Shown: piece after piece, positions 15,896-63,480 of the stretch
How positions within the stretch are numbered: position 1 is the first letter of the stretch
Layout: every line of letters begins with the position of its first letter
Source of the DNA: Sphingobium sp.
GTDB lineage: Bacteria > Pseudomonadota > Alphaproteobacteria > Sphingomonadales > Sphingomonadaceae
DNA length: 64,000 nt
Assembly: GCA_023266575.1 (NCBI GenBank)
Contig: JAHFPV010000015.1
Coordinates: forward strand, 39,605-103,604
Reading direction: 5' to 3'
Made by a program: the position numbers and the translations under genes
Notes under the pieces: model-generated
Databases searched by the model: none
What the model was told of the DNA's origin: nothing
Seen by the model: the letters and a program-made list of their open reading frames with translations, nothing else

Positions 15896-15960
15896 ACCCT
15901 GCGTCGAGTCGTGCGTTGAGCGCGGCACGGCGATGACGCCGGTGCAGGAGGGGGTGCGCA

Positions 15961-46064: not shown

Positions 46065-47324
46065 TCAGTCTATTGCTGCCAGCACCGACTGAGCGGAAAG
46101 CTTCCAGCTTGCGCTTGGTCGGGTGACGCGAACCTGCCCCCCTTGCACATGGCTAATCCATTGCCGGATGCAGGCGCTAATTTGAGGCGTCGATCCGTCC
46201 GCCGGAAAATAGCAGACGCCAAGCTGCTCGTGAATACGAAAGATGGGGAGATTCCGCGCCAATACAGGCCTGTCATGCCCCAACGCCTCGATTAGCGGCA
46301 ATCCGAAACCTTCGGCATAAGAGGCAATGATTACCCCCTGGCACGCGTCGTAAATACGTTCCAGTTCCAGATCATCAACATCGTCGAACCAGAATAATTT
46401 GTCGCCATGTTCAGGATGGCTGCGGATGGCATCATGCAGTTCGTGGACCGCCCATCCCATCCGACCGACAAGAACCAAGCGATCATTTGCACCTTGACGC
46501 CAGAGTTCGCTGAAAGCCGCCAGAATGTCCGTGTGGCCCTTCCGCGGCTCCAGCGTTCCCACCATCAGAGAAAAGGGTGCTTCAACATCAAAACGCATCG
46601 ACCCGTCATCGACCGCCAAGGCACGAACGAGACGGGCCTCCCGAATGTCATGCCCCATCGGCACCACGCTCGTGCTGTAGCCCCCGCGCACGCCATAGCG
46701 CTTGGCCAAAACCCTGCGCAAATCTTCCTCTGTCTGGTCGGATATGCATAAGAATCCTTCTGCAAGTCCGGCTATGGTATCAAGCCACGCCTTGTACCGC
46801 AGAACATTGTTGGGCGAGAACCATTCACGTCGTTCCACCGGTAGCAGGTCGCACACAAGGAACCATAGACGACCGCCTTCACGCTGAAACCGAGCAAGTT
46901 GGCCGCGATAACGACGAACGGTATCGAGCGAGAAATCCAGCCCGAGGAACATGTCGCCGGGTTTCGCTGACATTTCCACAGTTGAGCCGACCTTACTGAC
47001 GTCGGGCCAAGCTATGATATGATAAGGACGACGTCTGTCAGCCGCGACGAAACAAATGTCCCATTGATCGTGATTTTCTTCGTTCAGCGAGCGTGCAAGC
47101 GCGCGCACGACGCGCTGGATGCCTGTACCGGCATCATTGCGGCTGATGACTGCCAGGTCGATGAACAATCGTTTGGACCCCGATGGGGGCCGTGTTGATC
47201 GATAAGGAAGCTTAGAACGCTGCAACCGCGCACGCAGCTTGCGTACCGGGCCGGATGTTGCCGCCTGTCCAATACGGCAGGGCAAAAGATCCCAGAAAGC
47301 CTTCGACATTCTACGCAAACGCAC
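46065..47324 (-). CDS. Family 4 glycosyltransferase
   Basis: A 419-residue GT-B enzyme. The N-terminal unit has LFIDLAVISRNDAGTGIQRV and the C-terminal unit has LMVGTLEPRKGHTDILAAF, LVLVGRMGW, LFWFDDVDDLELERIYDAC and the E-x7-E motif EGFGLPLIEALG. It clearly resembles the third unit of the 1386-residue GT protein at 56630 (LVDISELVQHDSRSGFQRV, LMVGTIEPRKAARQVLAAF, EGFGLPLIEAARHG), so the two probably share ancestry and a similar linkage type. The start may be GTG 47324 or ATG 47309. It follows the export lipoprotein by eight bases. Confidence 0.87.
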   Translation of the reverse strand: MRLRRMSKAFWDLLPCRIGQAATSGPVRKLRARLQRSKLPYRSTRPPSGSKRLFIDLAVISRNDAGTGIQRVVRALARSLNEENHDQWDICFVAADRRRPYHIIAWPDVSKVGSTVEMSAKPGDMFLGLDFSLDTVRRYRGQLARFQREGGRLWFLVCDLLPVERREWFSPNNVLRYKAWLDTIAGLAEGFLCISDQTEEDLRRVLAKRYGVRGGYSTSVVPMGHDIREARLVRALAVDDGSMRFDVEAPFSLMVGTLEPRKGHTDILAAFSELWRQGANDRLVLVGRMGWAVHELHDAIRSHPEHGDKLFWFDDVDDLELERIYDACQGVIIASYAEGFGLPLIEALGHDRPVLARNLPIFRIHEQLGVCYFPADGSTPQISACIRQWISHVQGGQVRVTRPSASWKLSAQSVLAAID

Positions 47325-47332
47325 AGGTGAGT

Positions 47333-48502
47333 CTATTGCCTGAACGCCGTCGCCGTGGTTGCGATCGGCAGGAAGGTAGAGAAGATGACGCTCACGAACT
47401 TCTGGATGTCGGCGAGTGGAGCATTGGAAACGTAAAGTACGTCTTTGTCCCGGATCGGGAAGCTCTGTGCAATGAACAGGGTCGAAGGATCCCGCATGTT
47501 GATGCGATAGATGACAGGAATTTTGCCGTCCGGCGTGAGCCTCGCTGACGCCCGGATCGTTGGATTAACCGCTTCAGGACTTTCAAAACGGAAGATGAAC
47601 ACACCCTTTGCATTGGACCGTGAATCCTGAAGTCCTGAGAGGCGGCCAAGGGCTTCGGCCAAGGTCAAACCAGTAGCTTCGAAAGGCAGTTGCTCATTCT
47701 TGCCGACCGCACCCAGCGCCGTGAAGCTATAGGGTTGGTACAGTAAGGTCATGACATCGTCCGGCTGAAGCCGAACATTCTGCCGTGGATCTCGGATAAC
47801 CATTTCCAATGGTAGCGAAGCCACTTTCATGCCGCGCGTTATCTGAATCGTCATCTTACCCACCGGTTCCCTGACGCCCCCGGCTTCCGCCAAGATGTCG
47901 AGGACACGCTCGCCGCGCGACGTGAGAGGTACACGAGTGCTTTTTGCTACTTCTCCAACAACAGTCACGTTCGCCGCTGCGTTGTTCGACAAACGTACGA
48001 TCGCTTGCGGCTGATGCGCTATGCCATTCAGACGGGTAGTGATGGTGCGCGCGATCTCCTGAGGAGTACGACCTGCGGCCTGAACTCGACCAATGAACGG
48101 AATGACAATCTGTCCTTCGCTGTCCACCATTTGTTCGGGCAGGCTGTTGTTACGCGCCAGCGATAACGGAGCGCCCAGCCTGCTTTCGCTGCCCGAAGTC
48201 CCAAACAGCGTGGCAGGTGGCGCTTCCCATATGGAGACGTCGAGAACATCGCCTTGGCCAATCATCGATCCTACGGGGCGGCCTTCACCTAGATTTTCGG
48301 AAAACAAAAAAGGACGGCTGCTGGCCAAGATATCGCGGGCGATCGCGTCTGTAACATCAATGACCTTAATGTTCGCGTTGTCAACGACGCTGCTATCTTC
48401 AGCTTTTTTGATTCTGCCGGTGGACGGTCCGGTTGCCGGCATTACAGCGCATCCTGACAGCGTCGCGGCCAGACATGCTATTCCAGCCATCCTGACTGAC
48501 AT
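47333..48502 (-). CDS. Capsule polysaccharide export outer-membrane lipoprotein (BexD/CtrA-like)
   Basis: About 389 residues with a signal peptide and lipobox ATLSGC. The polysaccharide-export domain begins with GSMIGQGDVLDVSIWEAP, followed by VIPFIGRVQAAGRTPQEIARTI and SLBB-like segments (VGEVAKSTRVPLTSRGERVL, VRLQPDDVMTLLYQPYSFTA). The size fits BexD/CtrA-type proteins that form the outer-membrane channel for capsule. ATG 48502 with GGGAA upstream is preferred to ATG 48517. It is divergent from the kpsE-type gene and precedes a glycosyltransferase. Confidence 0.88.
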   Translation of the reverse strand: MSVRMAGIACLAATLSGCAVMPATGPSTGRIKKAEDSSVVDNANIKVIDVTDAIARDILASSRPFLFSENLGEGRPVGSMIGQGDVLDVSIWEAPPATLFGTSGSESRLGAPLSLARNNSLPEQMVDSEGQIVIPFIGRVQAAGRTPQEIARTITTRLNGIAHQPQAIVRLSNNAAANVTVVGEVAKSTRVPLTSRGERVLDILAEAGGVREPVGKMTIQITRGMKVASLPLEMVIRDPRQNVRLQPDDVMTLLYQPYSFTALGAVGKNEQLPFEATGLTLAEALGRLSGLQDSRSNAKGVFIFRFESPEAVNPTIRASARLTPDGKIPVIYRINMRDPSTLFIAQSFPIRDKDVLYVSNAPLADIQKFVSVIFSTFLPIATTATAFRQ

Positions 48503-48833
48503 ATTAGATTTTCCCATTGAAATTCAGCTACATCCAAATCATTATCGCCGCGCACCGTCAACAGGTGCGCAAGGCTACGAACCATGACCTAACCAGTAAT
48601 CTTGATCAAGAATGATCAACATATTTGCGGCGTCATAGCACGAAATCCATGTGCGGATGCAGGTCATTCATCTGCCCTAGACGATAACGAAAGCGCGGGC
48701 TAGGCCTGATGCGACATCCCTGCCGCTTGACCCCGCTTGTATCCTGCCAGTTTGTGGTTATGGATGCCATGTCCCTGTCTCCTGCCGAGGGATATTGCGT
48801 GTACGGCAACGTCGGAAAAGCGTATAAAGATCA
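48503..48833. promoter_or_regulatory. Divergent promoter region between export genes
   Basis: About 330 bases separate the two export genes, which are transcribed away from each other. It holds no gene I recognise and must carry promoters for both. gatcaagaatgatc near 48603 is an imperfect palindrome; no named operator was seen. Confidence 0.5.
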
Positions 48834-49937
48834 ATGCAGATTCAACAAAAGCTCAAGAATGTCAGCACGTTATTTGTTTTAACGGTTGTTGTTCCGACCC
48901 TACTGGCCATATTATATTTTGGCTTCATCGCCTCAGATGTCTTTATTTCTGAATCGCGCTTCACCGTGCGTAGTCCAGACAAGGCGACGCCTACGGGGTT
49001 GGGAGCCTTGTTTAAGAGTTCGGGCTTCAGCAATGCGGGCGATGAAATTTATGCCGCCCAGGATTATGTTGACTCCCGCGATGCGCTGCGTGCGGTGAAC
49101 CGGCAGCAAGCGTTCATCAACGCTTACAGTGGTTCATCGATATCGATGTTTGATCGCTTCGCTGGTTTTGGAATGGGCGATACGTTTGAGGATTTGTACA
49201 AATATTACAGAGGTAAGGTTGAAGTCAAATATGACAGTTCGTCTTCAATCGCAACGCTGACCGTTCGGGCGTATACAGCCAAAGATGCTGCCCGCTTCAA
49301 TGAGCAACTGCTCGAAATGGCTGAGTCTACTGTCAACACGCTTAACGAGCGCGGGCGGCAGGATCTTATCCGTTTTGCGCGGCGGGAAGTCGACAATGCC
49401 AAGAAGCAGTCGCAAGACACGGCTTTGGCATTATCGGCCTATCGTAATGCAGCGGGCGTCGTAGATCCCGAGAAGCAGGCGACCGTCCAAATTCAGATGA
49501 TTTCAAAGTTGCAGGACGAACTGATTACGACCAGGACGCAACTGCTGGAAACCCGGTCTGTCGCGCCGCAGAACCCGCAGATCGAGGTTCTCGAAACCCG
49601 CGCCCGAGGTCTGAGCCAAGAGATTGACAAGCAACTGGGCCTGGTTGCTGGCAGCAGCAGATCGCTTTCCACGCGGGCCGCGCGCTACCAGCGTCTGCTG
49701 CTAGAGAACCAGTTCGCCGACAAGCAGTTGTCCAGTGCGATGGCGTCGCTTGACGAAGCGCGCAACGAAGCGAACCGCAAACAGGCCTATGTGGAACGTA
49801 TCGTTCAGCCGAACACTCCCGACGAGGCGCTTGAGCCGCGGCGTCTGCGCGGCATTTTTTCAACGTTGATCTTGGGCCTCGCCGCTTGGGGTATCATCAG
49901 CATGCTGGTCGCAGGCATGCTAGAGCACCGGGACTGA
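48834..49937 (+). CDS. kpsE: Capsule export inner-membrane protein (KpsE/BexC/CtrB-like)
   Basis: The 367-residue protein has one N-terminal membrane helix (LFVLTVVVPTLLAILYFGFI), a long periplasmic part with helical coiled-coil character (EQLLEMAESTVNTLNERG, EVLETRARGLSQEIDKQLG), and a C-terminal helix (IFSTLILGLAAWGIISMLVA). The segment SRFTVRSPDK after the first helix is typical. Proteins of this class link the ABC transporter to the outer-membrane channel in capsule export. It heads a kpsE-kpsM-kpsT unit. Confidence 0.9.
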   Translation: MQIQQKLKNVSTLFVLTVVVPTLLAILYFGFIASDVFISESRFTVRSPDKATPTGLGALFKSSGFSNAGDEIYAAQDYVDSRDALRAVNRQQAFINAYSGSSISMFDRFAGFGMGDTFEDLYKYYRGKVEVKYDSSSSIATLTVRAYTAKDAARFNEQLLEMAESTVNTLNERGRQDLIRFARREVDNAKKQSQDTALALSAYRNAAGVVDPEKQATVQIQMISKLQDELITTRTQLLETRSVAPQNPQIEVLETRARGLSQEIDKQLGLVAGSSRSLSTRAARYQRLLLENQFADKQLSSAMASLDEARNEANRKQAYVERIVQPNTPDEALEPRRLRGIFSTLILGLAAWGIISMLVAGMLEHRD

Positions 49938-49944
49938 TGATCGC

Positions 49945-50745
49945 GTGAATAGTCTTTCACAGCTCTCCACGCTACGTCGAAGCGCGATGATTCAGGGACG
50001 GGTGATCTACGCGCTGCTGATGAGGGAGGTTCTTACCCGCTATGGCCGACATAATATCGGCTTTCTCTGGCTGTTCGTTGAACCGATGCTGTTTACGACC
50101 GGCGTGACAATCCTATGGACGCTGTCAAAATCGGCCCATGGATCTTCGCTACCCATCGTAGCGTTTGCGTTGACGGGTTATTCCAGCGTTCTGCTGTGGC
50201 GTAATATGCCTGCGCGGTGCATCGGTGCCATTGAACCCAATCTCGCCCTGATGTACCATCGCAACGTCAAGGCAATAGACATCTTCCTCGCACGGCTCCT
50301 CTTGGAAGCGGGCGGCGCGACAATATCCTTTGTCACCTTGAGTGTGTTCTACATCTATGTAGGGTGGCTCGAACCGCCTGAGGATCTTCTTACGGTAGTA
50401 GGCGGATGGCTGCTGCTTGCATGGTTTGGTGCCGCGATGGCCATGTTTTTGGGCGCAGTGAGCGAGAAGAGCGAACTGATCGAACGTTTTTGGCATCCGG
50501 CATCCTACATCATGTTCCCGTTGTCGGGGGCGGCTTTCATCGTTGATGCTCTGCCAACGGCTGCGCAGAAATTCATGCTCTATGTTCCCATGGTGAGCGG
50601 GGTCGAATTGGTTCGCGAAGGTTATTTCGGCGACCAAGTTAATTCTCATTACGACATCCCTTATTTGGTGGGATGGTGTATCGGGCTGACCCTCCTTGCA
50701 CTGGCACAGGTTGCCATGATTGGTCGGGGAATTACGCCAGAGTGA
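49945..50745 (+). CDS. kpsM: ABC-2 type polysaccharide transport permease
   Basis: The 266-residue integral membrane protein starts with GTG, eight bases after the kpsE stop. It has the N-terminal amphipathic MREVLTRYGRHNIGFLWLFV and six hydrophobic segments, including SFVTLSVFYIYVGWL, and the C-terminal PMVSGVELVREGYFG typical of KpsM/BexB-type permeases. An alternative start is ATG 49987. The stop overlaps the kpsT start by four bases (GTGA), indicating coupled translation. Confidence 0.9.
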   Translation: MNSLSQLSTLRRSAMIQGRVIYALLMREVLTRYGRHNIGFLWLFVEPMLFTTGVTILWTLSKSAHGSSLPIVAFALTGYSSVLLWRNMPARCIGAIEPNLALMYHRNVKAIDIFLARLLLEAGGATISFVTLSVFYIYVGWLEPPEDLLTVVGGWLLLAWFGAAMAMFLGAVSEKSELIERFWHPASYIMFPLSGAAFIVDALPTAAQKFMLYVPMVSGVELVREGYFGDQVNSHYDIPYLVGWCIGLTLLALAQVAMIGRGITPE

Positions 50746-51401
50746 TCAAAGCTGAAAATGTGTTCAAGGTCTATCCCACGCGATCGGGGGACCGTGTCGT
50801 GCTCAACGACATTTCTTTCACGCTCGAGCGGGGTGAAAAGCTGGGTGTCCTAGGCCGCAACGGCGCAGGCAAGTCGACGCTTGTGCGACTTGTCAGTGGT
50901 GCCGAACAGCCCACCTCTGGCACGATCTCCAGGGCCATGTCTGTGTCTTGGCCGCTTGCCTTTGGCGGCGCCTTTCAGGGTGCACTCACAGGTTTGGACA
51001 ATGTCCGCTTCATAAGTCGAATATATAAGCAGGAGTATGAGAGGAATATCGATTTCGTAGCCGAGTTCACGCAACTCGGGCTCTATCTCAAGGAGCCAGT
51101 TAAAACCTATTCTCAAGGCATGCGCGCACGCCTTGCCTTCGCCATTTCCATGATCATCGAGTTTGATTGCTATCTGATCGATGAAATTAGCGCGGTCGGT
51201 GATGCGCGGTTTCATGAAAAATGCGAAATAGAACTGTTCCAAAAACGCCATGACCGGGCGATGCTGATCATCTCACATGATACGGAATATGTGCGGAACC
51301 ACTGTTCCCACTTTGCCGTGCTGCATGATGGAGATATTTGTTTCTATTCCAGTTTCGATGAGGCCCACGCGCATCACATGGACAATCTGCATCGCCAGTA
51401 G
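50742..51401 (+). CDS. kpsT: ABC transporter ATP-binding protein for polysaccharide export
   Basis: The 219-residue ATPase starts with GTG 50742. It has Walker A GRNGAGKST, KTYSQGMRARLAFAISM as signature and Walker B CYLIDEISAVGD, with the switch His in ISHDTEYV. No C-terminal carbohydrate-binding domain of Wzt type is present. This short form fits group 2-like capsule exporters (KpsT, BexA, CtrD). It works with the preceding permease. No kpsC or kpsS gene was seen in the window. Confidence 0.92.
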   Translation: MIKAENVFKVYPTRSGDRVVLNDISFTLERGEKLGVLGRNGAGKSTLVRLVSGAEQPTSGTISRAMSVSWPLAFGGAFQGALTGLDNVRFISRIYKQEYERNIDFVAEFTQLGLYLKEPVKTYSQGMRARLAFAISMIIEFDCYLIDEISAVGDARFHEKCEIELFQKRHDRAMLIISHDTEYVRNHCSHFAVLHDGDICFYSSFDEAHAHHMDNLHRQ

Positions 51402-51497: not shown

Positions 51498-52400
51498 TCA
51501 CCTGCCAAGCATCCAAGCAAGCGTATCATGCAAGGTGTAGACGGGCCTCTGGCCTGACAGCATCTCAATCTTAGTGCGATCGCCCCAAAGCATCTTCACT
51601 TCATTCTTGCGAACGAAGGCCGGATTGACGGTGACGTCGAAGTCGTGTCCCGAAATCTCCTTGATTGACGCGATCACGTCGCCCAACGAGTGAGGCGTCC
51701 CTGAACAGATGTTAAAGACCTGCCTCAAAGCTTGGGGCTTGAATAGCAGCGCGGCATAGGCCAGCACCACATCGCGCACGTCGGAGAAGTCGCGTGCCAC
51801 ATCCAAATTGCCAAGTTCGATCTGCTCGGCTTTGCGCAGCACATGATCGATGATTTTGGGAATTACGAAATCGATCGACTGCCCTACCCCGGTATAGTTG
51901 AACGGTCGGGCTACGATGATCGGCAGACGATCCTCGTAAAGTTTGGCGACATACTCCATCGAGACCTTACTAACGGCATAGTCATTGACTGGATCGGGGG
52001 CGACATTCTCGTCAATGGCGCCGCTGACACGATTGCCGTAGATGTTGGCGCTGCTCGCCAAGAGGACCGCATCGGCACTCTTGGCCGCGCTCAGAGCCTC
52101 GAGCAGATTGCGCGTGCCAACGACATTCGTACGGTAGATGTCCTCGACGACACCGTGCGAAACAAAGGCGATTGCAGCCAGATGCGCAACCTTATCAGGC
52201 TGGAGCTGGGCGATAATTTCCTTGAGGCCCTGTGCATCAGTCAGATCACACGCATGGGTCGCAGTCAAGCCTTCGACCGGGTTGGTTATTGGACTGTGGG
52301 AAATGCCGAAGACTTCATGGCCCTGGCTTGCCAGCAGCGCTGTTAGATGGCGACCGGTAAAGCCATCCACACCGGTAATCAAGATTCTGCTCATAGACAT
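51498..52400 (-). CDS. rmd: GDP-6-deoxy-D-mannose (4-keto) reductase
   Basis: The 300-residue SDR enzyme has LITGVDGFTGRHLTALLASQG at the N-terminus, LASSANIYGN, YAVSKVSMEYV (Tyr/Lys) and ARPFNYTGVGQ. The sequence fits Rmd-type reductases, which convert GDP-4-keto-6-deoxymannose to GDP-D-rhamnose. Linkage to gmd (92 bases upstream) supports this against other epimerase-like roles. The ATG at 52400 is preferred over the longer frame from 52451; ATG 52394 is also possible. Confidence 0.82.
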   Translation of the reverse strand: MSMSRILITGVDGFTGRHLTALLASQGHEVFGISHSPITNPVEGLTATHACDLTDAQGLKEIIAQLQPDKVAHLAAIAFVSHGVVEDIYRTNVVGTRNLLEALSAAKSADAVLLASSANIYGNRVSGAIDENVAPDPVNDYAVSKVSMEYVAKLYEDRLPIIVARPFNYTGVGQSIDFVIPKIIDHVLRKAEQIELGNLDVARDFSDVRDVVLAYAALLFKPQALRQVFNICSGTPHSLGDVIASIKEISGHDFDVTVNPAFVRKNEVKMLWGDRTKIEMLSGQRPVYTLHDTLAWMLGR

Positions 52401-52492
52401 CTCATCGTCGCTACGCTGGCACAGGGCTTGGCGGTGCGGGAGCGACGCCAAGCCCCATAATATTAACTAGTACCTAAATTACCTAGATAGGA

Positions 52493-53829
<1,337 letters not shown>

Positions 53830-54993
53830 TTGAGTAAATTATCAACATTTCTGGCGACGATCGCTTTATCTTTTACTAATATGCTCGTTGGCAGCCTAGC
53901 GTATGCCAGTCCAACATTGGACGACCTATGGGTCGGTAATGCCCATTTTGAACAGGTTGGGCAACTTAATTGGCCGAACACTCTCGATCACCATTCCGAA
54001 TCGGCGGGTTGGTTCGCCGTTCGCAACGGCATCTGGTATGTCTTTAATCGCGCCTATCTCACCCGCAAGGTGGATTATTGCCCGCTCGACTATGCTAAGA
54101 TCGTGGTGCACCAGAGCACTGATCAGGGAAAAAGCTGGTCCGAGCCTGTTGTTGCTGTCGAACCGGGAGATAGCCCGGGCGGCGATGACTGCAATGCACT
54201 CGACGGCAGCACCTATTTTGATCAAACTACAGGTACATGGCACATCCTTTCCCAGTGCCTGACGAAGAACGAGGCCAGCCTTTGGTCCTTATGCCATTAT
54301 AGTCGGCGAGGCGATTCTCCGATGGGTAGGTTCCGTCCAGACAAGGGCAACCCGGTGGTTAGGGGCGGTGCGCTTTGGTCTCGAATTTGCGCGGGCAAAA
54401 ACAAGTCTTGTCCCGTAACCACACAAGACGAAGGAACGCCGGAAATTCTTGGTAAGCATCGGGGATCTTATATCGTGACTTTTCACGGTTGGTCCCCAAA
54501 ATCAGGCCATGGCTACCGCGGCGTGGCTGCGACCAAGGATTTTCGTAGCTGGAGAACGAATGGCAGCGAACTGCCTGGAGACGCCATGTTCAGCGCAAAG
54601 GACTGCCAAGCATGGTTGGAGGCCTGTATCGGCATAGGCGCGACCTCGACCTTTATTGGTAAAAAATATGCCTATGTTATCGGTGAAGTCATGGACAAGA
54701 ACCTGGCATGCCAGAAGGATCAAAAATGGGTGTTCGAATTGTTCCGAGTATTGCGCGGAGCTTGGCCTCAATCGGGCGCGGGCAAGTGGCAAAAACTGCC
54801 TGGAGACGCTCTACTGACACCTACATGGCGTGATGGAAACACGCTCTGTCAAGTATCATATGCGCGCTGGATCGTTGATGGAGATAATATCTATCTCGTC
54901 TATGAGGATTGGGGACCAGAGCGGCGGTTTGGAAGTCGGCGCCTGCTCCAGCTCAAAGCCGGCAAAGGGTCCCGCATCCAAAAAACGGATTAA
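53830..54993 (+). CDS. Secreted Asp-box beta-propeller protein (sialidase-like fold)
   Basis: TTG 53830 is set by AAGGA at 53818; the frame from 53824 adds two residues. A signal peptide (FLATIALSFTNMLVGSLAYA) precedes about 360 residues. One Asp-box motif, HQSTDQGKSWSEPV, and repeated strand units (TYFDQTTGTWHILSQC, RGSYIVTFHGWSPKSGHGYR, TSTFIGKKYAYVIGEVMD) suggest a five- or six-bladed propeller like sialidases or GH43-type enzymes. Several cysteines could form disulfides. The active site cannot be named. In a polysaccharide island it may trim or bind the product. Confidence 0.62.
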   Translation: MSKLSTFLATIALSFTNMLVGSLAYASPTLDDLWVGNAHFEQVGQLNWPNTLDHHSESAGWFAVRNGIWYVFNRAYLTRKVDYCPLDYAKIVVHQSTDQGKSWSEPVVAVEPGDSPGGDDCNALDGSTYFDQTTGTWHILSQCLTKNEASLWSLCHYSRRGDSPMGRFRPDKGNPVVRGGALWSRICAGKNKSCPVTTQDEGTPEILGKHRGSYIVTFHGWSPKSGHGYRGVAATKDFRSWRTNGSELPGDAMFSAKDCQAWLEACIGIGATSTFIGKKYAYVIGEVMDKNLACQKDQKWVFELFRVLRGAWPQSGAGKWQKLPGDALLTPTWRDGNTLCQVSYARWIVDGDNIYLVYEDWGPERRFGSRRLLQLKAGKGSRIQKTD

Positions 54994-55329: not shown

Positions 55330-56427
55330 ATGAGGATAGATAGTGATATTAACGAAATACTTCATGCTGGTAGAGGTGCATATTTGCGAACAATGCCACC
55401 TGGTGCCAAGACTTTTTTGAGCGCAGGCTGTGCAGGGCTTTGGTATTTTGAATGGATAGAACGATGCTATGGCAAAATCCCGCTGCATATAGGATTAGAA
55501 TATTATTCGCCTAAGCCTGAAAAACTTCCGGATAACGTCCGCTGGATAGAGAACACATGCAGCGACATGCATGGAGTAGATAGCGCTTCTTGTGACATCG
55601 TCTTCTCTGGTCAAAATCTTGAACATCTGTGGCCCAACGAAATCGAAGGCTTTATGCTTGAGGTTGCACGGGTAACACGCGCTGGAGGGCATCTGGTGAT
55701 GGATAGCCCTAACAGGTCGGTCACCGAGCTTTTACGCAACTGGAGCCACCCTGAACATATTATAGAGTTTACCGCCAAGGAAGCGGCTGAACTTGTCAGG
55801 CTAGCTGGCTTTGACGTGAAAAGCATCCGGGGGATCTGGTTGAACAGGGATTCTGATGGGCATGTCATCCCGTTCAATGTAAACCAGCCCGACTGGAATG
55901 ATGCAGAACGTCTTATCTTGGCATATGATAGGCCAGAAGATAGCTTTATCTGGTGGATCGAGGCTCAAAGGGTCGACAGAAGTCCGAACCTGAATGCTAT
56001 GCGAAAGCTGATCGCACGAGTTTATTCAAAAGCTTGGCCCGAGCGCAAGCTCCGTATGTGCAGTAATGTTGGCTCCGCTTTCTTCGAAGGCGACGAAGAA
56101 TGGATAGCCGGGCCGCCACTGACAAATGATGCTTTGCTCTTTGGTCCGTACATGCCTTTAAGGGCGGGGCGCTATAGATGCACCTTCGAGGTCTCATCGC
56201 GAGGCAACACTCAAGCTTACTTTGATGTCATCGCAGGTGATCAGCCTATTGTGATCAACTCAAAAGTTATAAATCTTGAAGCTGGAAAAAGCACGATCTC
56301 GATAGATTTTGAACTGGAGAAGCTCCATTTCGGGGTACAGTATCGATGCCTGGGTCGAGGTGGCGCAGGATTCTCAGTCCGACGCCGCGTTGAAGTAGAG
56401 GAATTCGATGTTCCTGCTTACCCGTAA
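55330..56427 (+). CDS. SAM-dependent methyltransferase with C-terminal GPY-type module
   Basis: The 365-residue protein begins with a class I methyltransferase domain: TFLSAGCAGLWYFEWIERC (SAM-binding loop near residue 31), IGLEYYSP, CSDMHGVDSASCDIVFSGQN, EHLWPNEIEGFML and GGHLVMDSPNRS. After about residue 270 follows a beta-rich module starting LLFGPYMPLRAGRYRCTFEV, with strand-like repeats to the C-terminus. The same kind of start (LLYGPYLPMAGQSYRI) occurs at the end of the triple-GT protein. A role in methylating the polysaccharide or its precursor is inferred. Confidence 0.75.
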   Translation: MRIDSDINEILHAGRGAYLRTMPPGAKTFLSAGCAGLWYFEWIERCYGKIPLHIGLEYYSPKPEKLPDNVRWIENTCSDMHGVDSASCDIVFSGQNLEHLWPNEIEGFMLEVARVTRAGGHLVMDSPNRSVTELLRNWSHPEHIIEFTAKEAAELVRLAGFDVKSIRGIWLNRDSDGHVIPFNVNQPDWNDAERLILAYDRPEDSFIWWIEAQRVDRSPNLNAMRKLIARVYSKAWPERKLRMCSNVGSAFFEGDEEWIAGPPLTNDALLFGPYMPLRAGRYRCTFEVSSRGNTQAYFDVIAGDQPIVINSKVINLEAGKSTISIDFELEKLHFGVQYRCLGRGGAGFSVRRRVEVEEFDVPAYP

Positions 56428-56629: not shown

Positions 56630-59600
56630 TCATGCATGTACCGTCGATTTCTTACCGCTCACGTTCTGAGTGGCATCATTATAGGGTTCCAGAATAATGG
56701 ATACCACTGACATGTCTGTGGCCTTGTCGACCCAGACACGGATTTCCAGATCTTTGATGGGGCTGTCGAACGTGATCGTGTCATCGATACGCCAGTTGTT
56801 CCAGTCGCCCTTGATAGGACCGCGCCAATGAACCTTAGTACCGCCATGCGAGGAAATATCCATAAACTCGGTTCCAACCAATGTTCGGGCATCGCCTGAA
56901 GCCATAATACGATAAGATTGGCCTGCCATCGGCAAATAAGGACCGTAGAGGAGGAAGCCCGCCTGGTTGGTTGTGCGGATATGCTGTCGATCAGGAACGC
57001 CGATCGGAGAGATCATACGGCTGTCACTGCCCCAAAGGCGCAGCGCGCCGTCGGGCATCCAGTATTTATAAGGCGACTTTTGATCCAAGATGATATTCAG
57101 CAATCTATCTGCACTCTGCGCCCACGTTTGCCACGAGATCGCTGGATGATTGGAAGCCTCAGCCTTGGAACGGATCAGCTTCGTCACCGCCTCCGATATG
57201 GTTTCCGGATCGCGGCTGTTATCGAAATAGATAGCAGCATCACCCGCAACCTCGCGGAACACCGGAATATCACGCGCCAGCACCGGGAGGCCGTGCCGCG
57301 CGGCCTCGATCAGAGGCAATCCGAACCCCTCGCCTTCGCTGGCAGCGATAAGATATCTGCACGATGCGTACACTCTATCGAGGAACTCATCGCTGATGGA
57401 TTCCAGCCAGAACAGTTTACTGTTCAACTCGGGATGGCTGCGGACATTATCGGCGAAATCGTCCATCATCCATCCAAGTTTGCCGACTAGGACTAGATTG
57501 ACGGCAACATCCTGAGCCCAAAGCGCCTCGAAAGCTGCTAACACCTGCCGCGCAGCCTTGCGAGGCTCGATGGTGCCGACCATGAGGAAAGAAGGACTGT
57601 CGCGCAGCGTCGACAATATGGTGTTGGCATTGTCAGGCAGCCCCATTGTCGGAATGCTGTTTTCAGTGTCACCGCCCAGATGAAACCAGTTGATCGTTAG
57701 TGGGATCTCACGTTTCGCACCGAAATGCTCCAGCCAGTCATGGCAGGTATCCGCCACGGCCCGAGAGATAGCGGTAATCCCATCGAACTGCGTGACGGCA
57801 TGAAGCCACGCATGATAGATTCGGCGGGCATCGGGCATAAAGAAATCGTCAGCCATGATAGGTAGAAGATCATAGACAACGAACTGGACATTCACCCCGT
57901 ATCGACGCCAAGACTGAAGCAGAGCATGCTGCTGGATTATCATCGTCGGGCTCAGGTCTAGACCAACAAACATGTCCTCCGGAGCGGGTTCGACGAGTTC
58001 ATCTTCACACCAGCCATCCCAGACGTTGAGATATCTGCTGGTAAAGCGGCGTGCATAGCGGAAGCCGGGTTTGTTGAACTCGGCATAGACCGGCTCGACC
58101 ATCCAACCTGCTGGTGGGTTAGACAGCCAGTGCGAGAGGATTGAGCGCACGACACGCTGAAAGCCCGATCGCGAATCATGCTGGACCAGCTCGGATATAT
58201 CGACAAGGAGACGCTTCAGTCTTGGACGGGGCGGTAGGCTGCGCGCGATCGCTTTGCCGACCGCCGCCCACTCCGCGGCATCTAGGTTAAGCTCGCTCTC
58301 GACCAAGGACTGCGTCAGCCCTGCTTCCTGCGTGACCCCTCTGGCATAATAATGCTCGATCGCGACTGCATAATCATCGCCACAACGGCGCGGCTGATGA
58401 CGCTGCCTGATATGGGCTCGTGCAGCTTCACTTAAGGCCTGCCGGCGTGCATGGTCCTTCCAGAGGACGTCGAGAGCCTCGACCAGATTCTCATTGGCGA
58501 ACGCATCTTCCATCAGCCAGACGCAATCTGTTGGTAGTTCGCCCATGGAGCCATTTGCATTAACTATCGTCGCCAAGCCTGCGTTCATGCAATCGAGTAC
58601 GGCGGCCGACGTTTCACCGCGGGAAAGCGTCCGAAGCTGCACGCCGACATCCGCTGCGGCCAACCATTGGCGAAATATAAGCGTATCTGTCCAACCCGTT
58701 ATCTTGATGCGGCCAGCACCTGCCTCGCTGATGAGGTGCTGCAAGTCCGCGCCATATCCGCCCCCGTCATTCTGTCCTACAAAGACGAGATGACAATGCG
58801 GATCCTTCGCCAAGGGGCTGGCGAGCCAAGCCGAGAGCAGACGATCATTCATCTTAGTCTTGGCCAACATGCCAAAGCTGCAGACCACGAAATCGTCAGG
58901 TTCGATGCCCAGAGCTTTGCGTGCGGCAGCCTTGTCCAGGCCGAAAAGCGGTTGCCGCAGAAGCGGGATAAGGCGCCAATCGTCTGCAGCATCGGCTCCA
59001 TACCATTGCCGCGCCAATTTGCGCGAATAGTCGGCATGAACGATGACGCCCAGGGAGTCTTGGATGACCTGAAGGTTGCAAGGATAGGCCCAGATGGCGT
59101 CCGCCACATCCTCTGCCTGAAACCTCTTCACGACCGCAGGCCAGCCATGAGCGTGCAACAACTCACGTGCGAATCCGTTCGGATTAGTTCCCATCGCTTC
59201 GCGCCAGTGAGAGATGCCGGAAAGGTAGAAATCATGCAGCACCACGACACCGGGATAGGTGTGTAGCAGATCGAACATGTGCATGTGAAATTCGGAGTTC
59301 CCGAAATGATACAATATCCGGTCAAACTCATGCGCATGCTGGCGGAACCAAGCGACGTCACGAACGGGATAGTTCGCTGTGACGCTTACGTCGCTGATGC
59401 CGTTCTGCACCACCACCACATCGATCTGATAGTGCCGGGCCAACTCTGGCAGGAGTTCTGCGCTATAGTCCGCAATTCCACTGGCCTCTGGCGGCAGGGG
59501 CGAAAGGAAAGCGAGGCGCGGCCGCTTGAGCGGCGGGGCGACAGGGATGGTGCGCTTTTCCTGTTGACGGGCATGGCTTTCTTCTAGTGCAGCCCATGCG

Positions 59601-60790
59601 CGACGCGATGTCTTGTCCCAATCGAACTTCTCGGCCTGTTTGAGGCCATGGCGTTCAAGTTCTGCGCGCTGCTTATCGTCAGTCAGTAGGGTAGCAAGTT
59701 TGCCACTCAGCGCCGGAAGATCGAAAGGATCGAACAAGGCGCTGTCCAGCCCCACCACCTCGGGTAAGCTGGAGCGGTCGCTGGCGATCACTGCCCTGCC
59801 ACACTTCATCGCTTCGAGTACCGGCAGACCGAAGCCCTCATGCCAGGACGGGAAAACGAACAATTTGCACGACCTGTAGAAGGCAATCAGATCGGCCTCG
59901 GGAATGAAGCCGGTCATGATCAACTCTCCGTCAGCCAACCCTAGGTTGGCAGCAAACTGAAGGAGGCGAAGGCGCTCAGGCTCCAGCACTGCACAGACGA
60001 TCGCGAGCTGATGCTGACGTCTAACGGCTTGCGGTATGTTAGCATAAGCCTCGATTAGGCCTTCTATATTCTTTCGAAAGTCGATGCCGCCCGTATACAT
60101 GACGAACGGCCGCTTGATCCCATAAGCCTCAGCCAGATGTGCCTTCATCTCGGCATCGACTTCCCCGGGGGTAAAATGCTCTTCTGCGGCAGTCGAGATG
60201 TTGACGGTGTTAAGTGGATCAATACCGAGATAACCAATTGATTCCTGGCGCGAAGATTCTGAAATCGCCAGCAGCAGATCTGCGTTACGCAGATAGCTCA
60301 GTTTGTTCTCGTACCAAGCGGCCAGCGTTCCATCTCGCAGGTAGATGTGCCTGTGAATGAGTGGAATGAGATCATACAATATTACTGCCGTAGGAACCGA
60401 TGAACTCAGTTGCCCGACGCTGGTCACAACATTGTCACCCCAGCCCTCGAAAACCGAGCTGATGAGTACATAGTCGGGGTTCAAACTTGCAAGCGCGCTT
60501 TCTCTTATCTGCTCCGCCGCCTTTCGACGCTGAGCGTTTTGCGGATCCGCGCCGAAGTTGGGGATAGGCGCTTCCCACACAAGAATATTCTCCGGTGGGA
60601 CAAGGCCGGCTAACGCCGCACGCAATGGCTCATTGGACTCAGCAAATTCGCCATTGAGCGCAACGAAGACTTCGTGCTCGCCCCGGTTGCGGGCAAGCCA
60701 CTGCGTAAGAGACAAGCCATAACGACCAATGCCCCGAAACCGGCTTGAACCGCCTTGCGCGCCCTGCAGATCGATTACGATACGCATCAT
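56630..60790 (-). CDS. Giant glycosyltransferase with three GT4-type units
   Basis: The 1386-residue protein has three GT-B/GT4-like units and a C-terminal module. Unit 1 (~1-415) has RIVIDLQGAQGGSSRFRGIG, YTGGIDFRKNIEGLIEAY and EGFGLPVLEAMKCG (Glu318, Glu326). Unit 2 (~423-815) has LAFLSPLPPEASGIADYSAE, LHDFYLSG and RGETSAAVLDCMNAG. Unit 3 (~858-1235) has LLVDISELVQHDSRSGFQRV, VGTIEPRK and EGFGLPLIEAARHG (Glu1154, Glu1162). Residues ~1278-1370 form a GPY-type beta module. It starts by ATGA overlap with the FkbM-coiled-coil gene. Such multi-unit enzymes can polymerise repeat units of a glycan; linkage and sugar are unknown. Confidence 0.85.
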   Translation of the reverse strand: MMRIVIDLQGAQGGSSRFRGIGRYGLSLTQWLARNRGEHEVFVALNGEFAESNEPLRAALAGLVPPENILVWEAPIPNFGADPQNAQRRKAAEQIRESALASLNPDYVLISSVFEGWGDNVVTSVGQLSSSVPTAVILYDLIPLIHRHIYLRDGTLAAWYENKLSYLRNADLLLAISESSRQESIGYLGIDPLNTVNISTAAEEHFTPGEVDAEMKAHLAEAYGIKRPFVMYTGGIDFRKNIEGLIEAYANIPQAVRRQHQLAIVCAVLEPERLRLLQFAANLGLADGELIMTGFIPEADLIAFYRSCKLFVFPSWHEGFGLPVLEAMKCGRAVIASDRSSLPEVVGLDSALFDPFDLPALSGKLATLLTDDKQRAELERHGLKQAEKFDWDKTSRRAWAALEESHARQQEKRTIPVAPPLKRPRLAFLSPLPPEASGIADYSAELLPELARHYQIDVVVVQNGISDVSVTANYPVRDVAWFRQHAHEFDRILYHFGNSEFHMHMFDLLHTYPGVVVLHDFYLSGISHWREAMGTNPNGFARELLHAHGWPAVVKRFQAEDVADAIWAYPCNLQVIQDSLGVIVHADYSRKLARQWYGADAADDWRLIPLLRQPLFGLDKAAARKALGIEPDDFVVCSFGMLAKTKMNDRLLSAWLASPLAKDPHCHLVFVGQNDGGGYGADLQHLISEAGAGRIKITGWTDTLIFRQWLAAADVGVQLRTLSRGETSAAVLDCMNAGLATIVNANGSMGELPTDCVWLMEDAFANENLVEALDVLWKDHARRQALSEAARAHIRQRHQPRRCGDDYAVAIEHYYARGVTQEAGLTQSLVESELNLDAAEWAAVGKAIARSLPPRPRLKRLLVDISELVQHDSRSGFQRVVRSILSHWLSNPPAGWMVEPVYAEFNKPGFRYARRFTSRYLNVWDGWCEDELVEPAPEDMFVGLDLSPTMIIQQHALLQSWRRYGVNVQFVVYDLLPIMADDFFMPDARRIYHAWLHAVTQFDGITAISRAVADTCHDWLEHFGAKREIPLTINWFHLGGDTENSIPTMGLPDNANTILSTLRDSPSFLMVGTIEPRKAARQVLAAFEALWAQDVAVNLVLVGKLGWMMDDFADNVRSHPELNSKLFWLESISDEFLDRVYASCRYLIAASEGEGFGLPLIEAARHGLPVLARDIPVFREVAGDAAIYFDNSRDPETISEAVTKLIRSKAEASNHPAISWQTWAQSADRLLNIILDQKSPYKYWMPDGALRLWGSDSRMISPIGVPDRQHIRTTNQAGFLLYGPYLPMAGQSYRIMASGDARTLVGTEFMDISSHGGTKVHWRGPIKGDWNNWRIDDTITFDSPIKDLEIRVWVDKATDMSVVSIILEPYNDATQNVSGKKSTVHA

Positions 60791-63480
60791 ATGCGCCCCT
60801 TTTCCAATGGCGATGCGCCTTTTACATGTTGAAGCCGCAATATGATCCGCCGTGCTTCAGGGCTCATATCGCTTGTGTCGACCGTCGCCAGGGGCGAGAT
60901 TGGCTCAGTCACATGGCTTACAAGATCACTTATCTGCTCCAGCGGCACATTCGTGCCTGCCTCTTCAAGCTGGCGGTAGATCGCAGCAGCCTGATCCAGC
61001 TGCCGGCGCTCGACTTGCGCGATCCTCATGCGCAACCGTTCCTCGGAGATATGACCGAGTTGCAGCAGCGCTTCCTGCTCTTGATGTTGCAGACGACTGG
61101 TAAGTCGAGATCGACGTATCCACCGACGGCTGCGCTTCTGCTGCTGCCGCTCGGATTCCAATAGACGATCGAGCTCAATCCACAATCCTCCAGCAGACTG
61201 CGCTTCACTGGAGGTTCCGATATCCTTTTTCACTTGCTCCCTGCTGGTTCCGCGACGGAGCATACTCAAATAATGGGTCAGACCAGTTTGATCGGGAGAT
61301 CGATGAATGTATCTATGATAGAGCCAGCTTATGAACTCATCATCATTCTTTGAGCCTATCATCTGATTGTAGCGGTTAAGATATTCCGGAGATGAGTAAA
61401 TCTCGAAAAGCATCTTCCCACGCCCCAATCCTGCACGCAACGTACTACTGTGTAGCCGTAATTCTGATGGCTCGGGATTTCTTCCTAGAAACAGATTATA
61501 GGATGTTGCGATAAACTGATCCAGTGGAAGGCTGATCAGATCAATCACATTACTGATATCTTGAGAGGACATGTCGAGGTTACATCCTTGATGTTTTGAT
61601 CCATCATGATCCTGAGATTTTTCCGATATCGGACAAACCGCAAGTTGAGTGGCGCCCTCCAGACCATCTGAATCGCATACTGAAGCAGGCGTCGTATTGC
61701 CGTTTTTTATCGACGCTGCAATATGCGATGCACGAGCATCCCCTTCGATATTAATTATCTCCTGGTAAAAATTTCTCTCCCTAAAAAAAAACCTGTATAT
61801 GGCTGAAAATTTCCAACTTCCGCTACCAATCACACTATAAAGAATATCTTTCTGACTTACAGTGATGAGTGATAGCTGTTTAATTAATCTTTTTTTATCG
61901 TTTATCTCGCATTCTATATTTCGAAATTCTCTATTTAATTTTTCTGATTTTTCTTTTTCTTCTTCGAGCTGATTCTGTATTTTGCCAAGGCGATCTTCAT
62001 AGGATTTTGCCAGCGTGGCGACTGCCAACCCATGTTCCGCTTGCTGGTTGGCCATAGCTTCGGCGAGCGCCCGCTCACGCTCGTGCCCTTCAGCACGAAT
62101 ATCGGATGAAATCTTATTTGTACGTGAATGGAGAGCCTGCTCTCGCACCCAAAAATCTTTGTGGGTCGCCTCGATACGCTCCTGTAATTCTGCGCAGCGT
62201 TGTTCCCATTCTTCTTGGCGAACTGCGGCTTTCTCAAAGAGGGCCCGTTCACGTTCCAGCGCGACTTTGAGTTGATCGCGCGTTTCGGCGCGGATATGCG
62301 ATATGATCTCGGTTGTGCGCGATTGGAGGTCGCGCTCCTGTGCTAAGAACTCGCCATGGATCACTTCGATCTGCTGCTGGAGCCTTGCACATTGCTGCTC
62401 CAGTTCCTGCTGCCGGGCGATCGCCGCCTCGGACAACGCATGCTCGCGCTTGAGCACGACGGCAAGATGCTCGCGCGCCTCGGTGCGAACATTGGAAAGG
62501 GCTTCATCCTTCCGCCTTAAGTGCTCTCGTTCTGATGTGACGGCATCCTGCCGGATTAGTTCGATCTGCTGCTGCAGCCTTACGCATTGCTGCTTCAGTT
62601 CCTGCTGCTGGGACGCTGCAGCTTCGGATAGGGCCACTTCACGCTCCAGCGCGGCATCGAGTTGCTTGGACATTTCAGACCGGACGCCTGCAACAATCTC
62701 GTCCGTACGAGATTGCAAGGCTTGTTCATGCGCAGAAATGTAAGATTCTAATTTCGCAACCCGTTGATCGTGCGCGCGCACTATTTCAATCACATGACCT
62801 GAATCTTGCGTTAGCTGGAATCCATCAAATACATTAGGCGGAAAATCGAAGTGCTTACTTAGTTCTTTATGATTATTATGTAAATAAAATCTATTAAGTC
62901 CATCTGAATAAACGTGATTATAGCCTTTATCTAATATTATATCCTCCCACTCTGAAAAATTGCTTATCTGCGTTCCAGGAATGGTGGACTCTATGACGAC
63001 CACCCAAGGTCGCCTGCTCGCATCCGTCCAGCCACGCAGTACGGCTCTTTCCATTCCCTCGACATCGATCTTCAGCCAGTGGATTTCACGGTTCGGGCAT
63101 AGGTTAAGAATATTATCAAATATGACAGCGGATACAATAATGGGAGAATATTCGAAATTATTCGATTTGTGGGATTCAGCAATTTCCTTATTAGAGGTAG
63201 ATAGACCTGTTCCTTCTATGTTATAGAAATCGCACAAATCATTACTATCCGAGACGATGGCTTCGACCACCATGTCGCTTTGCCTATCTTTTCTCAGAAG
63301 ATCCGCGTATATTGGGACAGGCTCGACATGAATACCTGTCCAGCCCGATTCAGAAAATATCTTGCTGACCGAATCTTTAATAGGGTGTTGCGCGCCTATA
63401 TCTATGAAGAATCCGTTTTCTACATTTTTTAGTGCGCGCCATAGCATGACGTCTTCGAAGTTCTGGGCAAAGCTTCTCAT
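60787..63480 (-). CDS. FkbM-type methyltransferase with coiled-coil repeats and DUF4214 modules
   Basis: The 897-residue protein starts with an FkbM-like methyltransferase domain (residues 1-220: SQ-type FAQNFEDVMLWRAL, FFIDIGAQHPIKDSVSKIF, HVEPVPIYADLL, HWLKIDVEGMERAVLRG). Residues ~249-530 are coiled coil, with a 65-residue repeat starting at 249, 314, 379 and 444. The segment SVIGSGSWKFSAIYRFFF (549-566) resembles a motif found near coiled coils in surface-sugar enzymes. Two DUF4214-like modules follow (about 649-700 and 713-760), then a helical Gln/Arg-rich tail. Its stop overlaps the triple-GT start by four bases. A chain-capping or ruler role is inferred. Confidence 0.8.
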   Translation of the reverse strand: MRSFAQNFEDVMLWRALKNVENGFFIDIGAQHPIKDSVSKIFSESGWTGIHVEPVPIYADLLRKDRQSDMVVEAIVSDSNDLCDFYNIEGTGLSTSNKEIAESHKSNNFEYSPIIVSAVIFDNILNLCPNREIHWLKIDVEGMERAVLRGWTDASRRPWVVVIESTIPGTQISNFSEWEDIILDKGYNHVYSDGLNRFYLHNNHKELSKHFDFPPNVFDGFQLTQDSGHVIEIVRAHDQRVAKLESYISAHEQALQSRTDEIVAGVRSEMSKQLDAALEREVALSEAAASQQQELKQQCVRLQQQIELIRQDAVTSEREHLRRKDEALSNVRTEAREHLAVVLKREHALSEAAIARQQELEQQCARLQQQIEVIHGEFLAQERDLQSRTTEIISHIRAETRDQLKVALERERALFEKAAVRQEEWEQRCAELQERIEATHKDFWVREQALHSRTNKISSDIRAEGHERERALAEAMANQQAEHGLAVATLAKSYEDRLGKIQNQLEEEKEKSEKLNREFRNIECEINDKKRLIKQLSLITVSQKDILYSVIGSGSWKFSAIYRFFFRERNFYQEIINIEGDARASHIAASIKNGNTTPASVCDSDGLEGATQLAVCPISEKSQDHDGSKHQGCNLDMSSQDISNVIDLISLPLDQFIATSYNLFLGRNPEPSELRLHSSTLRAGLGRGKMLFEIYSSPEYLNRYNQMIGSKNDDEFISWLYHRYIHRSPDQTGLTHYLSMLRRGTSREQVKKDIGTSSEAQSAGGLWIELDRLLESERQQQKRSRRWIRRSRLTSRLQHQEQEALLQLGHISEERLRMRIAQVERRQLDQAAAIYRQLEEAGTNVPLEQISDLVSHVTEPISPLATVDTSDMSPEARRIILRLQHVKGASPLEKGRI
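62085..62736 (-). repeat. 65-codon tandem repeat inside the FkbM gene
   Basis: The encoded repeat has a period of exactly 65 residues (195 bases): units begin at residues 249, 314 and 379, with a partial fourth at 444. Each contains an EREHALSEAA-like segment and an EQQCARLQQQIE-like segment. Copies differ by many substitutions, so the repeat is old or under selection rather than a recent slippage. Confidence 0.8.

Follow-up and report, generated by a model that had tools for sequence, protein, structure and literature searches.

A probable WbdD-like capping ruler with an FkbM methyltransferase head in a Sphingobium capsule cluster

Introduction

The closest described counterpart of the gene pair analysed here is the chain-length control system of E. 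coli WbdD and its polymerase. The WbdD head lies about 200 Å from the polymerase, and insertions into the coiled coil raise chain length while truncations lower it (PMC5082667, in part). Behind the coil, the WbdD tail carries an amphipathic helix and a polymerase recruitment site, and coiled-coil terminators have been described as widespread (PMC11231755, in part). In Aquifex aeolicus, a 3-O-methyl cap is read by the binding domain of the transporter ATPase Wzt (PMC9445017, in part). For ABC-dependent capsules, a 2025 review presumes that chain length is set jointly by synthesis and export, a question that “warrants further investigation” (PMC12220298, in part). WbdD-like rulers in capsule clusters, if they are there, would open this question to experiment.

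We analysed a 64,000-nucleotide stretch of a Sphingobium sp. contig (hereafter the window), in which a preliminary description had likened two adjacent genes to WbdD and the polymerase WbdA. We conclude that the first protein, P0001, is probably a capping ruler of the WbdD type that bears an FkbM head, paired with the second, P0002, in an ABC-transporter capsule pathway. A search of open-licence PMC articles for FkbM literature on such a system found no relevant paper.

Results

Architecture of the gene pair

The two genes and their parts are as follows.

60787..63480, minus strand: P0001, FkbM methyltransferase, coiled coil and DUF4214, 897 aa, proposed capping ruler (ORF, Pfam, AlphaFold)
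62800..63480, minus strand: P0001 FkbM head, residues 1–227 (Pfam and alignment of 26 proteins)
61825..62799, minus strand: P0001 single predicted helix, residues 228–552, 325 residues, about 48 nm (AlphaFold)
62263..62652, minus strand: P0001 residues 277–406, 130 residues or two 65-residue repeats, missing in locus L030 (pairwise alignment)
61792..61824, minus strand: P0001 degenerate motif SGSWKFSAIYR, residues 553–563, at the coil end (motif search, AlphaFold)
61192..61566, minus strand: two P0001 DUF4214 domains, within residues 639–763 (Pfam, AlphaFold)
60829..60870, minus strand: P0001 C-terminal peptide DMSPEARRIILRLQ, residues 871–884, possible polymerase docking peptide (weak motif and profile matches)
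56630..60790, minus strand: P0002, triple GT4 protein, proposed polymerase, 1386 aa (ORF; Pfam Glycos_transf_1, three matches)
59579..60787, minus strand: P0002 glycosyltransferase module 1, residues 2–404 (47% identity to module 1 of the O8 polymerase)
56690..56980, minus strand: P0002 C-terminal beta-sandwich, residues 1271–1367 (no Pfam family above cut-off; weak fold matches)

Open reading frames and Pfam confirm the two adjacent genes of the preliminary description: the stop of P0001 overlaps the start of P0002 by 4 bp (ATGA), the first product is an 897-residue FkbM protein with DUF4214 modules, and the second has 1386 residues with three GT4 units. The contig ends with the window, 520 bases upstream of P0001. 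The Methyltransf_21 (FkbM) match covers residues 27–187 of P0001, with PF05050 scoring 79.8 bits (cut-off 22.7) and TIGR01444 scoring 40.3 (cut-off 37.7); D27, G29, K137, D139, E141 and G142 are invariant across 26 aligned FkbM-head proteins. A search of P0001 against PDB sequences gave no match at 0.1.

The structure prediction that had been proposed as a check bore out the expected plan for P0001. AlphaFold predicts an uninterrupted helix from residue 228 to 552 that breaks exactly at SGSWKFSAIYR, followed by the DUF4214 domains, another helix behind them and a short C-terminal helix (874–884); with Pfam, this gives the head, coil and separate tail of WbdD-type terminators. The model has a mean pLDDT of 70.9 and a pTM of 0.37, with helix blocks at 47–83 and nearly all of residues 553–637 below 50, so we trust its local elements only. 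At 0.1485 nm per residue the helix would span about 48 nm. A coil had been described with about 280 residues; the coil itself is predicted, although the AlphaFold helix is longer, at 325 residues. COILS-type scoring, with a reconstructed scoring table, assigned 199 residues to coil in four segments, as against 0–163 in 20 shuffles of residues 237–560, one of which reached 163. The 65-residue repeat unit reported earlier is recovered: the self-offset score of the coil peaks at 342 for an offset of 65, the runner-up being 167 at 130.

Export and sugar genes of the cluster

Neighbouring genes of the cluster include these.

46065..47324, minus strand: single GT4 (Pfam)
47333..48517, minus strand: OPX, outer-membrane polysaccharide export protein (Pfam Poly_export)
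48834..49937, plus strand: KpsE-like protein (TIGR01010, E 5e-105, below its cut-off)
49945..50745, plus strand: KpsM-like ABC permease (Pfam; NCBIfam match below cut-off)
50673..51401, plus strand: KpsT-like ATPase, 242 aa, without carbohydrate-binding domain (Pfam)
51498..52451, minus strand: short-chain dehydrogenase adjoining gmd, possibly rmd (SDR; name unconfirmed by profile)
52493..53542, minus strand: gmd, GDP-mannose 4,6-dehydratase (TIGR01472 above cut-off)
55330..56427, plus strand: class I methyltransferase with a P0002-type beta-sandwich at its C-terminus, 56116–56409 (Pfam, domain profile)

KpsM, KpsT, KpsE and OPX of the kps pathway are all present in the cluster (KpsE and KpsM by NCBIfam matches below their cut-offs). 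Two PF05159 genes of the KpsC/KpsS type lie elsewhere in the genome, on contig C15, and their tie to the window glycan is putative. The window locus is of the capsule kind. The preliminary description had remarked on a KpsT without a carbohydrate-binding domain; Pfam on the ATPase and a genome-wide search for Wzt_C (PF14524), which found no match at 0.001, agree on this, and such an ATPase fits the capsule branch and is no oddity.

The sugar supply had been read as manA-manB-manC with gmd-rmd. Here gmd (TIGR01472) and manC (TIGR01479) pass their cut-offs, and the other three names are unconfirmed at this level: the short-chain dehydrogenase called rmd passed no profile cut-off among the matches listed, the phosphohexomutase matches of manB were all below cut-off, and manA gave no match at 1e-20. 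GDP-D-rhamnose is a plausible building block of the window glycan and is put no more strongly, because rmlB and rmlC also lie near the pair and the name rmd is unconfirmed. A 389-aa ORF at 53824–54993 has a signal-peptide-like start by eye and no Pfam family at 0.001.

FkbM-coil genes are paired with large glycosyltransferases

We scanned genome contigs with the FkbM head and assembled 88 loci: the best 80 of at least 524 genome relatives, chosen by head, seven plasmid loci and the window. They come mostly from Pseudomonadota, and also from Cyanobacteriota, Nitrospirota, Bacillota, Chlorobiota and others. Among the 72 of the 80 genome loci with at least 2.5 kb of 3' flank, a glycosyltransferase of at least 700 aa lies directly behind the FkbM gene, or is fused to it, in 55, compared with 9 of 558 control genes; because of the non-overlap filter, some true pairs went uncounted (L082 and L090, where the glycosyltransferase ORF overlaps). 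The junction falls within 15 bp in 36 of those 55. Head and glycosyltransferase domains share one ORF in 8 of the 88 loci (L022, L031, L033, L036, L045, L087, L095 and L109; L031 and L036 checked by Pfam).

Searched in reverse, 8 of 249 family genomes hold a relative of P0002 module 1 at E 1e-30 or better. An FkbM-coil-DUF4214 gene lies beside it in three (the window's own, L131 and L132), a DUF4214 ORF lies beside it in L127 and L130, and neither is its neighbour in L126, L128 and L129. The co-occurrence anticipated by the preliminary description is thus strong in the forward direction and weak in reverse. P0001 has a match of any kind, few of them strong, in 15 of the 249 family genomes and none in the four listed genomes of its own genus, a patchy distribution that suggests a mobile cluster.

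L048, L060, L064 and L091 encode the FkbM part and the DUF4214 part in two neighbouring ORFs; the modules are therefore separable. These four loci, and the DUF4214 ORFs that stand beside the polymerase in L127 and L130 with no adjoining FkbM-coil gene, would fit a P0001 that acts as a scaffold, its coil and DUF4214 domains gathering polymerase and exporter while methylation is incidental. We think this improbable: the head residues are invariant in 26 of 26 aligned proteins, and in 62 of 68 FkbM proteins the head is followed by a predicted coil.

The region behind the coil and WbdD

The names WbdD (O8, O9) and WbdA (O8) were assigned here from place and size, the record titles being “class I SAM-dependent methyltransferase” and “glycosyltransferase”. 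BLASTP of P0001 with WbdD O8 gave no match, and the heads belong to different Pfam families. A profile of the region behind the coil, built from 27 proteins without DUF4214, finds WbdD of O8 at E 3.5e-12 and of O9 at 2.3e-11, the best unrelated E. coli ORF scoring 0.93; a profile of the motif region built without WbdD gives 6e-10 for both. The other non-FkbM matches of the post-coil profile below 0.01 were two Variovorax ORFs (4.8e-10 and 1.4e-9) and a methyltransferase gene in L027 (1.2e-3). Judged by these profile matches, the region behind the coil in the O-antigen branch (described below) is homologous to that of WbdD despite the differing heads. DUF4214 relatives match the profile weakly (L047, L034 and L043, 1e-4 to 4e-4), and the window's P0001 and L030 gave no significant score with WbdD-type post-coil profiles. 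The window tail appears tied to WbdD by the motif, its position and the architecture only.

The WbdD motifs behind the coil are SRSWRITQPLR and SRSWRMTKGYR, to which the degenerate SGSWKFSAIYR of P0001 is kin. The pattern W[RK][ILMVF][TSA]..[LYIVFM][RK], broadened after inspection, is carried behind residue 228 by 46 of the 68 FkbM-coil proteins counted and by none of the 672 control ORFs, and a stricter form occurs in 31 of 68 and 0 of 672; these counts use 68 of the 88 proteins, the other 20 being cut by contig ends, fused to glycosyltransferases or shorter than 300 aa. Of the 40 motif proteins with a predicted coil before the motif, 28 have it no more than 25 residues from where the coil stops. 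Before residue 228, the strict motif is found in three Variovorax control ORFs (L065, L073 and L099), two of which are the Variovorax ORFs matched by the post-coil profile. Two Variovorax ORFs close to the cluster, L099 2776–4623 (GT2 by Pfam) and L065 2806–4611 (minus strand), carry an SWR motif and match the motif profile; glycosyltransferases may also use an SWR anchor.

At the C-terminus, the pattern [IV]Y..L is present in both WbdDs and in 16 of 68 proteins versus 10 of 672 controls, the window having II for IY; a tighter pattern was found in 2 of 68 and 4 of 672. Profile support for the window is weak, at E 0.03 over the full length of P0001 and 0.82 where the match falls in the tail. 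The P0001 peptide weakly resembles the C-termini of other FkbM-coil proteins and of WbdD, and polymerase docking is a possible role for it.

O-antigen-like and capsule-like loci

The loci divide by their export genes. A cap-binding ATPase of the Wzt type is present in 35 of 88, which are O-antigen-like with a short coil (Wzt_C was checked by Pfam in two loci, the other cap-binding ATPases being called by our own profile). In 26 of the 35, at most 20 bp lie between the end of the ATPase gene and the FkbM gene, and the resulting order Wzm, Wzt, FkbM-coil, multi-glycosyltransferase is the wzm-wzt-wbdD-wbdA order of E. coli O9 (L111) and O8 (L112). KpsE or OPX, searched with the window's own two proteins as queries, is found in 17 of 88 loci; DUF4214 is present in 16 of these 17 (14 in the same ORF by profile and two by hand) and the cap-binding domain in none. 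The seventeenth, L032, is on a contig that ends right behind its head. L048, L060, L064 and L091 were added to the DUF4214 class by hand, since their domain lies in a separate ORF next door. Belonging to neither branch are 29 of the 88 loci, among them six Variovorax loci that have an ATPase without the binding domain, no DUF4214, and no KpsE or OPX within reach; seven DUF4214 loci have neither KpsE/OPX nor the binding domain.

With kinship ignored, Fisher tests give 2.6e-11 for KpsE/OPX with DUF4214 and 6e-5 for KpsE/OPX without the binding domain, and DUF4214 and the binding domain separate cleanly by count ([[0,8],[34,13]] of 55 loci, p 1.7e-4). On kinship-independent pairs from well-supported branches, 3.0 of 3 agree for the KpsE/OPX association and on average 2.2 of 3 for DUF4214 and the binding domain, neither being significant; the associations that define the branches depend on common descent. 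Mapped onto the FkbM tree, DUF4214 requires nine changes, at least four of them forced by well-supported branches. Two loci, L131 and L132, are of the full capsule kind, with OPX, KpsE, KpsM, KpsT, a glycosyltransferase, an FkbM-coil-DUF4214 protein and a multi-glycosyltransferase (the ATPase profile gave no match in L132), and the window carries the same parts in a different order.

This division bears on whether a working ruler might act on an O-antigen-like chain on lipid A instead of on a capsule. The branch with demonstrable homology to WbdD is O-antigen-like, which speaks for lipid A; the window cluster, however, has KpsE and OPX, its genome has the KpsC/KpsS-like pair, and DUF4214 accompanies KpsE/OPX in nearly all such loci, and we regard a lipid A substrate as very improbable. 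A capsule remains the preferred substrate of the proposed P0001 ruler.

Module 1 of P0002 shares 189 of 404 residues (47%) with its counterpart in the E. coli O8 polymerase. The C-terminal beta-sandwich of P0002, about 105 residues with the pattern G.L.YGPY..L..G.Y, has 35 matches in 31 ORFs when the window is counted with the other loci, and its carriers include glycosyltransferases and methyltransferases. Foldseek matches of the P0002 sandwich are weak: the best, at 1.4e-3, are viral capsid jelly rolls, and carbohydrate-binding modules follow at about 1e-2 with TM to query of 0.54–0.65. Counts of the sandwich on the glycosyltransferase against the Wzt binding domain ([[2,3],[29,15]], p 0.34) did not support the idea that the one stands in for the other.

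Coil length varies between close relatives

The closest relative among the best 80 is that of Sphingobium quisquiliarum P25 (L030), with a head 76% identical. P0001 and its L030 counterpart are identical at 477 of 747 aligned residues and differ by one coil gap of exactly 130 residues, two repeats or about 19 nm, all other gaps being of 1–9 residues, while the polymerases are 1386 and 1387 residues long and identical at 1164 of 1386 positions (84%). The two species, two coil repeats apart with a closely similar polymerase, form a natural test pair. The three closest other pairs each have a single coil indel, of 47, 14 and 22 residues, and each of the next three includes a coil indel of seven. 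Among proteins in which the motif was found, the spacing from residue 228 to the motif is 41–213 residues (median 108, n=25) in loci with a cap-binding ATPase and 200–502 residues (median 340.5, n=10) in the DUF4214 kind; if the ruler reading holds, capsule versions would be about three times longer than O-antigen versions.

Among plasmid matches of WbdD (H62, H64 and H23), those of O9 span 759 and 810 codons against 708, and for O8 the figures are 477 against 425. By these spans WbdD, a proven ruler, likewise seems to differ in length among natural copies. A plasmid protein of Azospirillum thermophilum (L020 7989–12324) has many near-identical coil repeats; its C-terminal part looks glycosyltransferase-like by eye and gave no glycosyltransferase profile match. 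Adjoining the pair in L030, the gene at 15455–17554 encodes a protein in which DUF4214 and FkbM domains are joined by a GH99 match that stays below its cut-off.

These length differences also bear on another account of P0001, in which the FkbM head modifies sugars within the chain or on side chains, the coil is a tether to the polymerase, and synthesis and export determine length. The FkbM family of methyltransferases is broad, and its enzymes are able to methylate internal residues; the capsule-kind ATPase without a cap-reading domain and the adjoining second methyltransferase point the same way. A tether, however, needs neither 325 residues nor whole-repeat differences between close relatives, and in the O-antigen branch these proteins occupy the operon slot of WbdD and share its post-coil region. 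We consider internal decoration unlikely, though a stronger contender than the scaffold, and retain the capping ruler as our preferred reading of P0001.

Long-coil methyltransferases in E. coli group 3 capsule loci

Group 3 capsule records were traced via PMC10433991 (in part). The export region is present in 34 genomes, 12 of them listed, and out of these we examined five E. coli loci, together with one Enterobacter plasmid. Three of the five E. coli loci (L135, L136 and L137) carry OPX, KpsM, KpsT, a KpsE-like gene, a methyltransferase of 840–917 aa and a glycosyltransferase with two GT2 stretches (checked in L135 and L136). These methyltransferases have a Methyltransf_24 head, a predicted coil from about 290–300 to 728–805 and the motif SWKLTAPVR, and those of L135 and L137 differ by coil indels. 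The post-coil profile matches them at 1.3e-7 to 1.8e-7 when searched against those three sequences alone, and the motif profile, run on the full set, does so at 4e-8 to 6e-8; the long coils may contribute to these scores. Capsule clusters with a long-coil methyltransferase are therefore not confined to the FkbM family. No coiled-coil methyltransferase with a Methyltransf_24 head was found in L138 or the Enterobacter plasmid (L133), and L134 is a cluster remnant only. In tblastn of WbdD O8 and O9 against plasmids, no group 3 capsule annotation appeared among the matches listed (40 of 67 and 17 of 17).

Discussion

The architecture of P0001 and its relatives, their pairing with large glycosyltransferases, the existence of capsule and O-antigen kinds of locus, the homology of the O-antigen-branch tail to WbdD and the variation in coil length are observed. 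From these we infer how the window pair could work. P0002 would extend a lipid-linked glycan at the membrane, and the post-coil region of P0001, with its motif, DUF4214 domains and C-terminal peptide, would hold P0001 near the polymerase. The coiled coil would keep the methyltransferase some 48 nm away; a chain that reached the head would be O-methylated at its free end, on the terminal sugar, and growth would stop. The finished chain would then be exported via KpsM-KpsT-KpsE-OPX, with the ATPase reading no cap. Terminal methylation, termination, length control and anchoring by P0001 are thus all proposed roles. Counting against a capping ruler, the window has no known cap-reading part and a second methyltransferase (55330–56427) lies next door. 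Since the capsule kind lacks the Wzt binding domain, either the cap only stops growth, or DUF4214 or the beta-sandwich reads it.

More tentatively, and with somewhat less than even confidence, we suggest that a ruler cassette of long coil, SW[RK] motif and tail is common to several phyla with interchangeable WbdD-type, FkbM and Methyltransf_24 heads, and that in its long-coil form it controls how long the chains of ABC-dependent capsules grow, in bacteria ranging from sphingomonads to E. coli with group 3 capsules. If so, the ruler would be a module that accepts different capping heads.

Among known systems, the Wzm-Wzt O-antigen transporters, as in Aquifex aeolicus, are matched by the cap-binding ATPase of the 35 O-antigen-like loci, in contrast to the window, whose genome has no Wzt_C match. 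The group 3 methyltransferases differ from P0001 in their Methyltransf_24 head, their twin-GT2 partner and the absence of a DUF4214 match, and resemble it in the capsule cluster of OPX, KpsM, KpsT and KpsE, the long coil, the motif and the adjacent glycosyltransferase. Klebsiella O7 ORF6 and O12 WbbB (PMC11231755, in part) likewise combine a terminator, a coil and glycosyltransferases, a plan that the fused loci L036 and L031 match, whereas the window pair is on two polypeptides and the heads differ. Compared with WbdD, P0001 has an FkbM head (PF05050) in place of Methyltransf_11/25/31, with no kinase found, and the window system has a longer coil, added DUF4214, an ATPase without the binding domain, and KpsE and OPX. 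The analogy drawn in the preliminary description does not extend to a significant profile score for the window tail; it gains from the operon order, the tail homology of the O-antigen branch, the relationship of polymerase module 1 and the changes in coil length. With WbdD-WbdA (E. coli O8/O9/O9a, Klebsiella O5/O3) the window shares a methyltransferase head, a coil, an SW[RK] motif behind it and an adjacent multi-GT4 polymerase whose module 1 is 47% identical, and the O-antigen branch shares the gene order as well.
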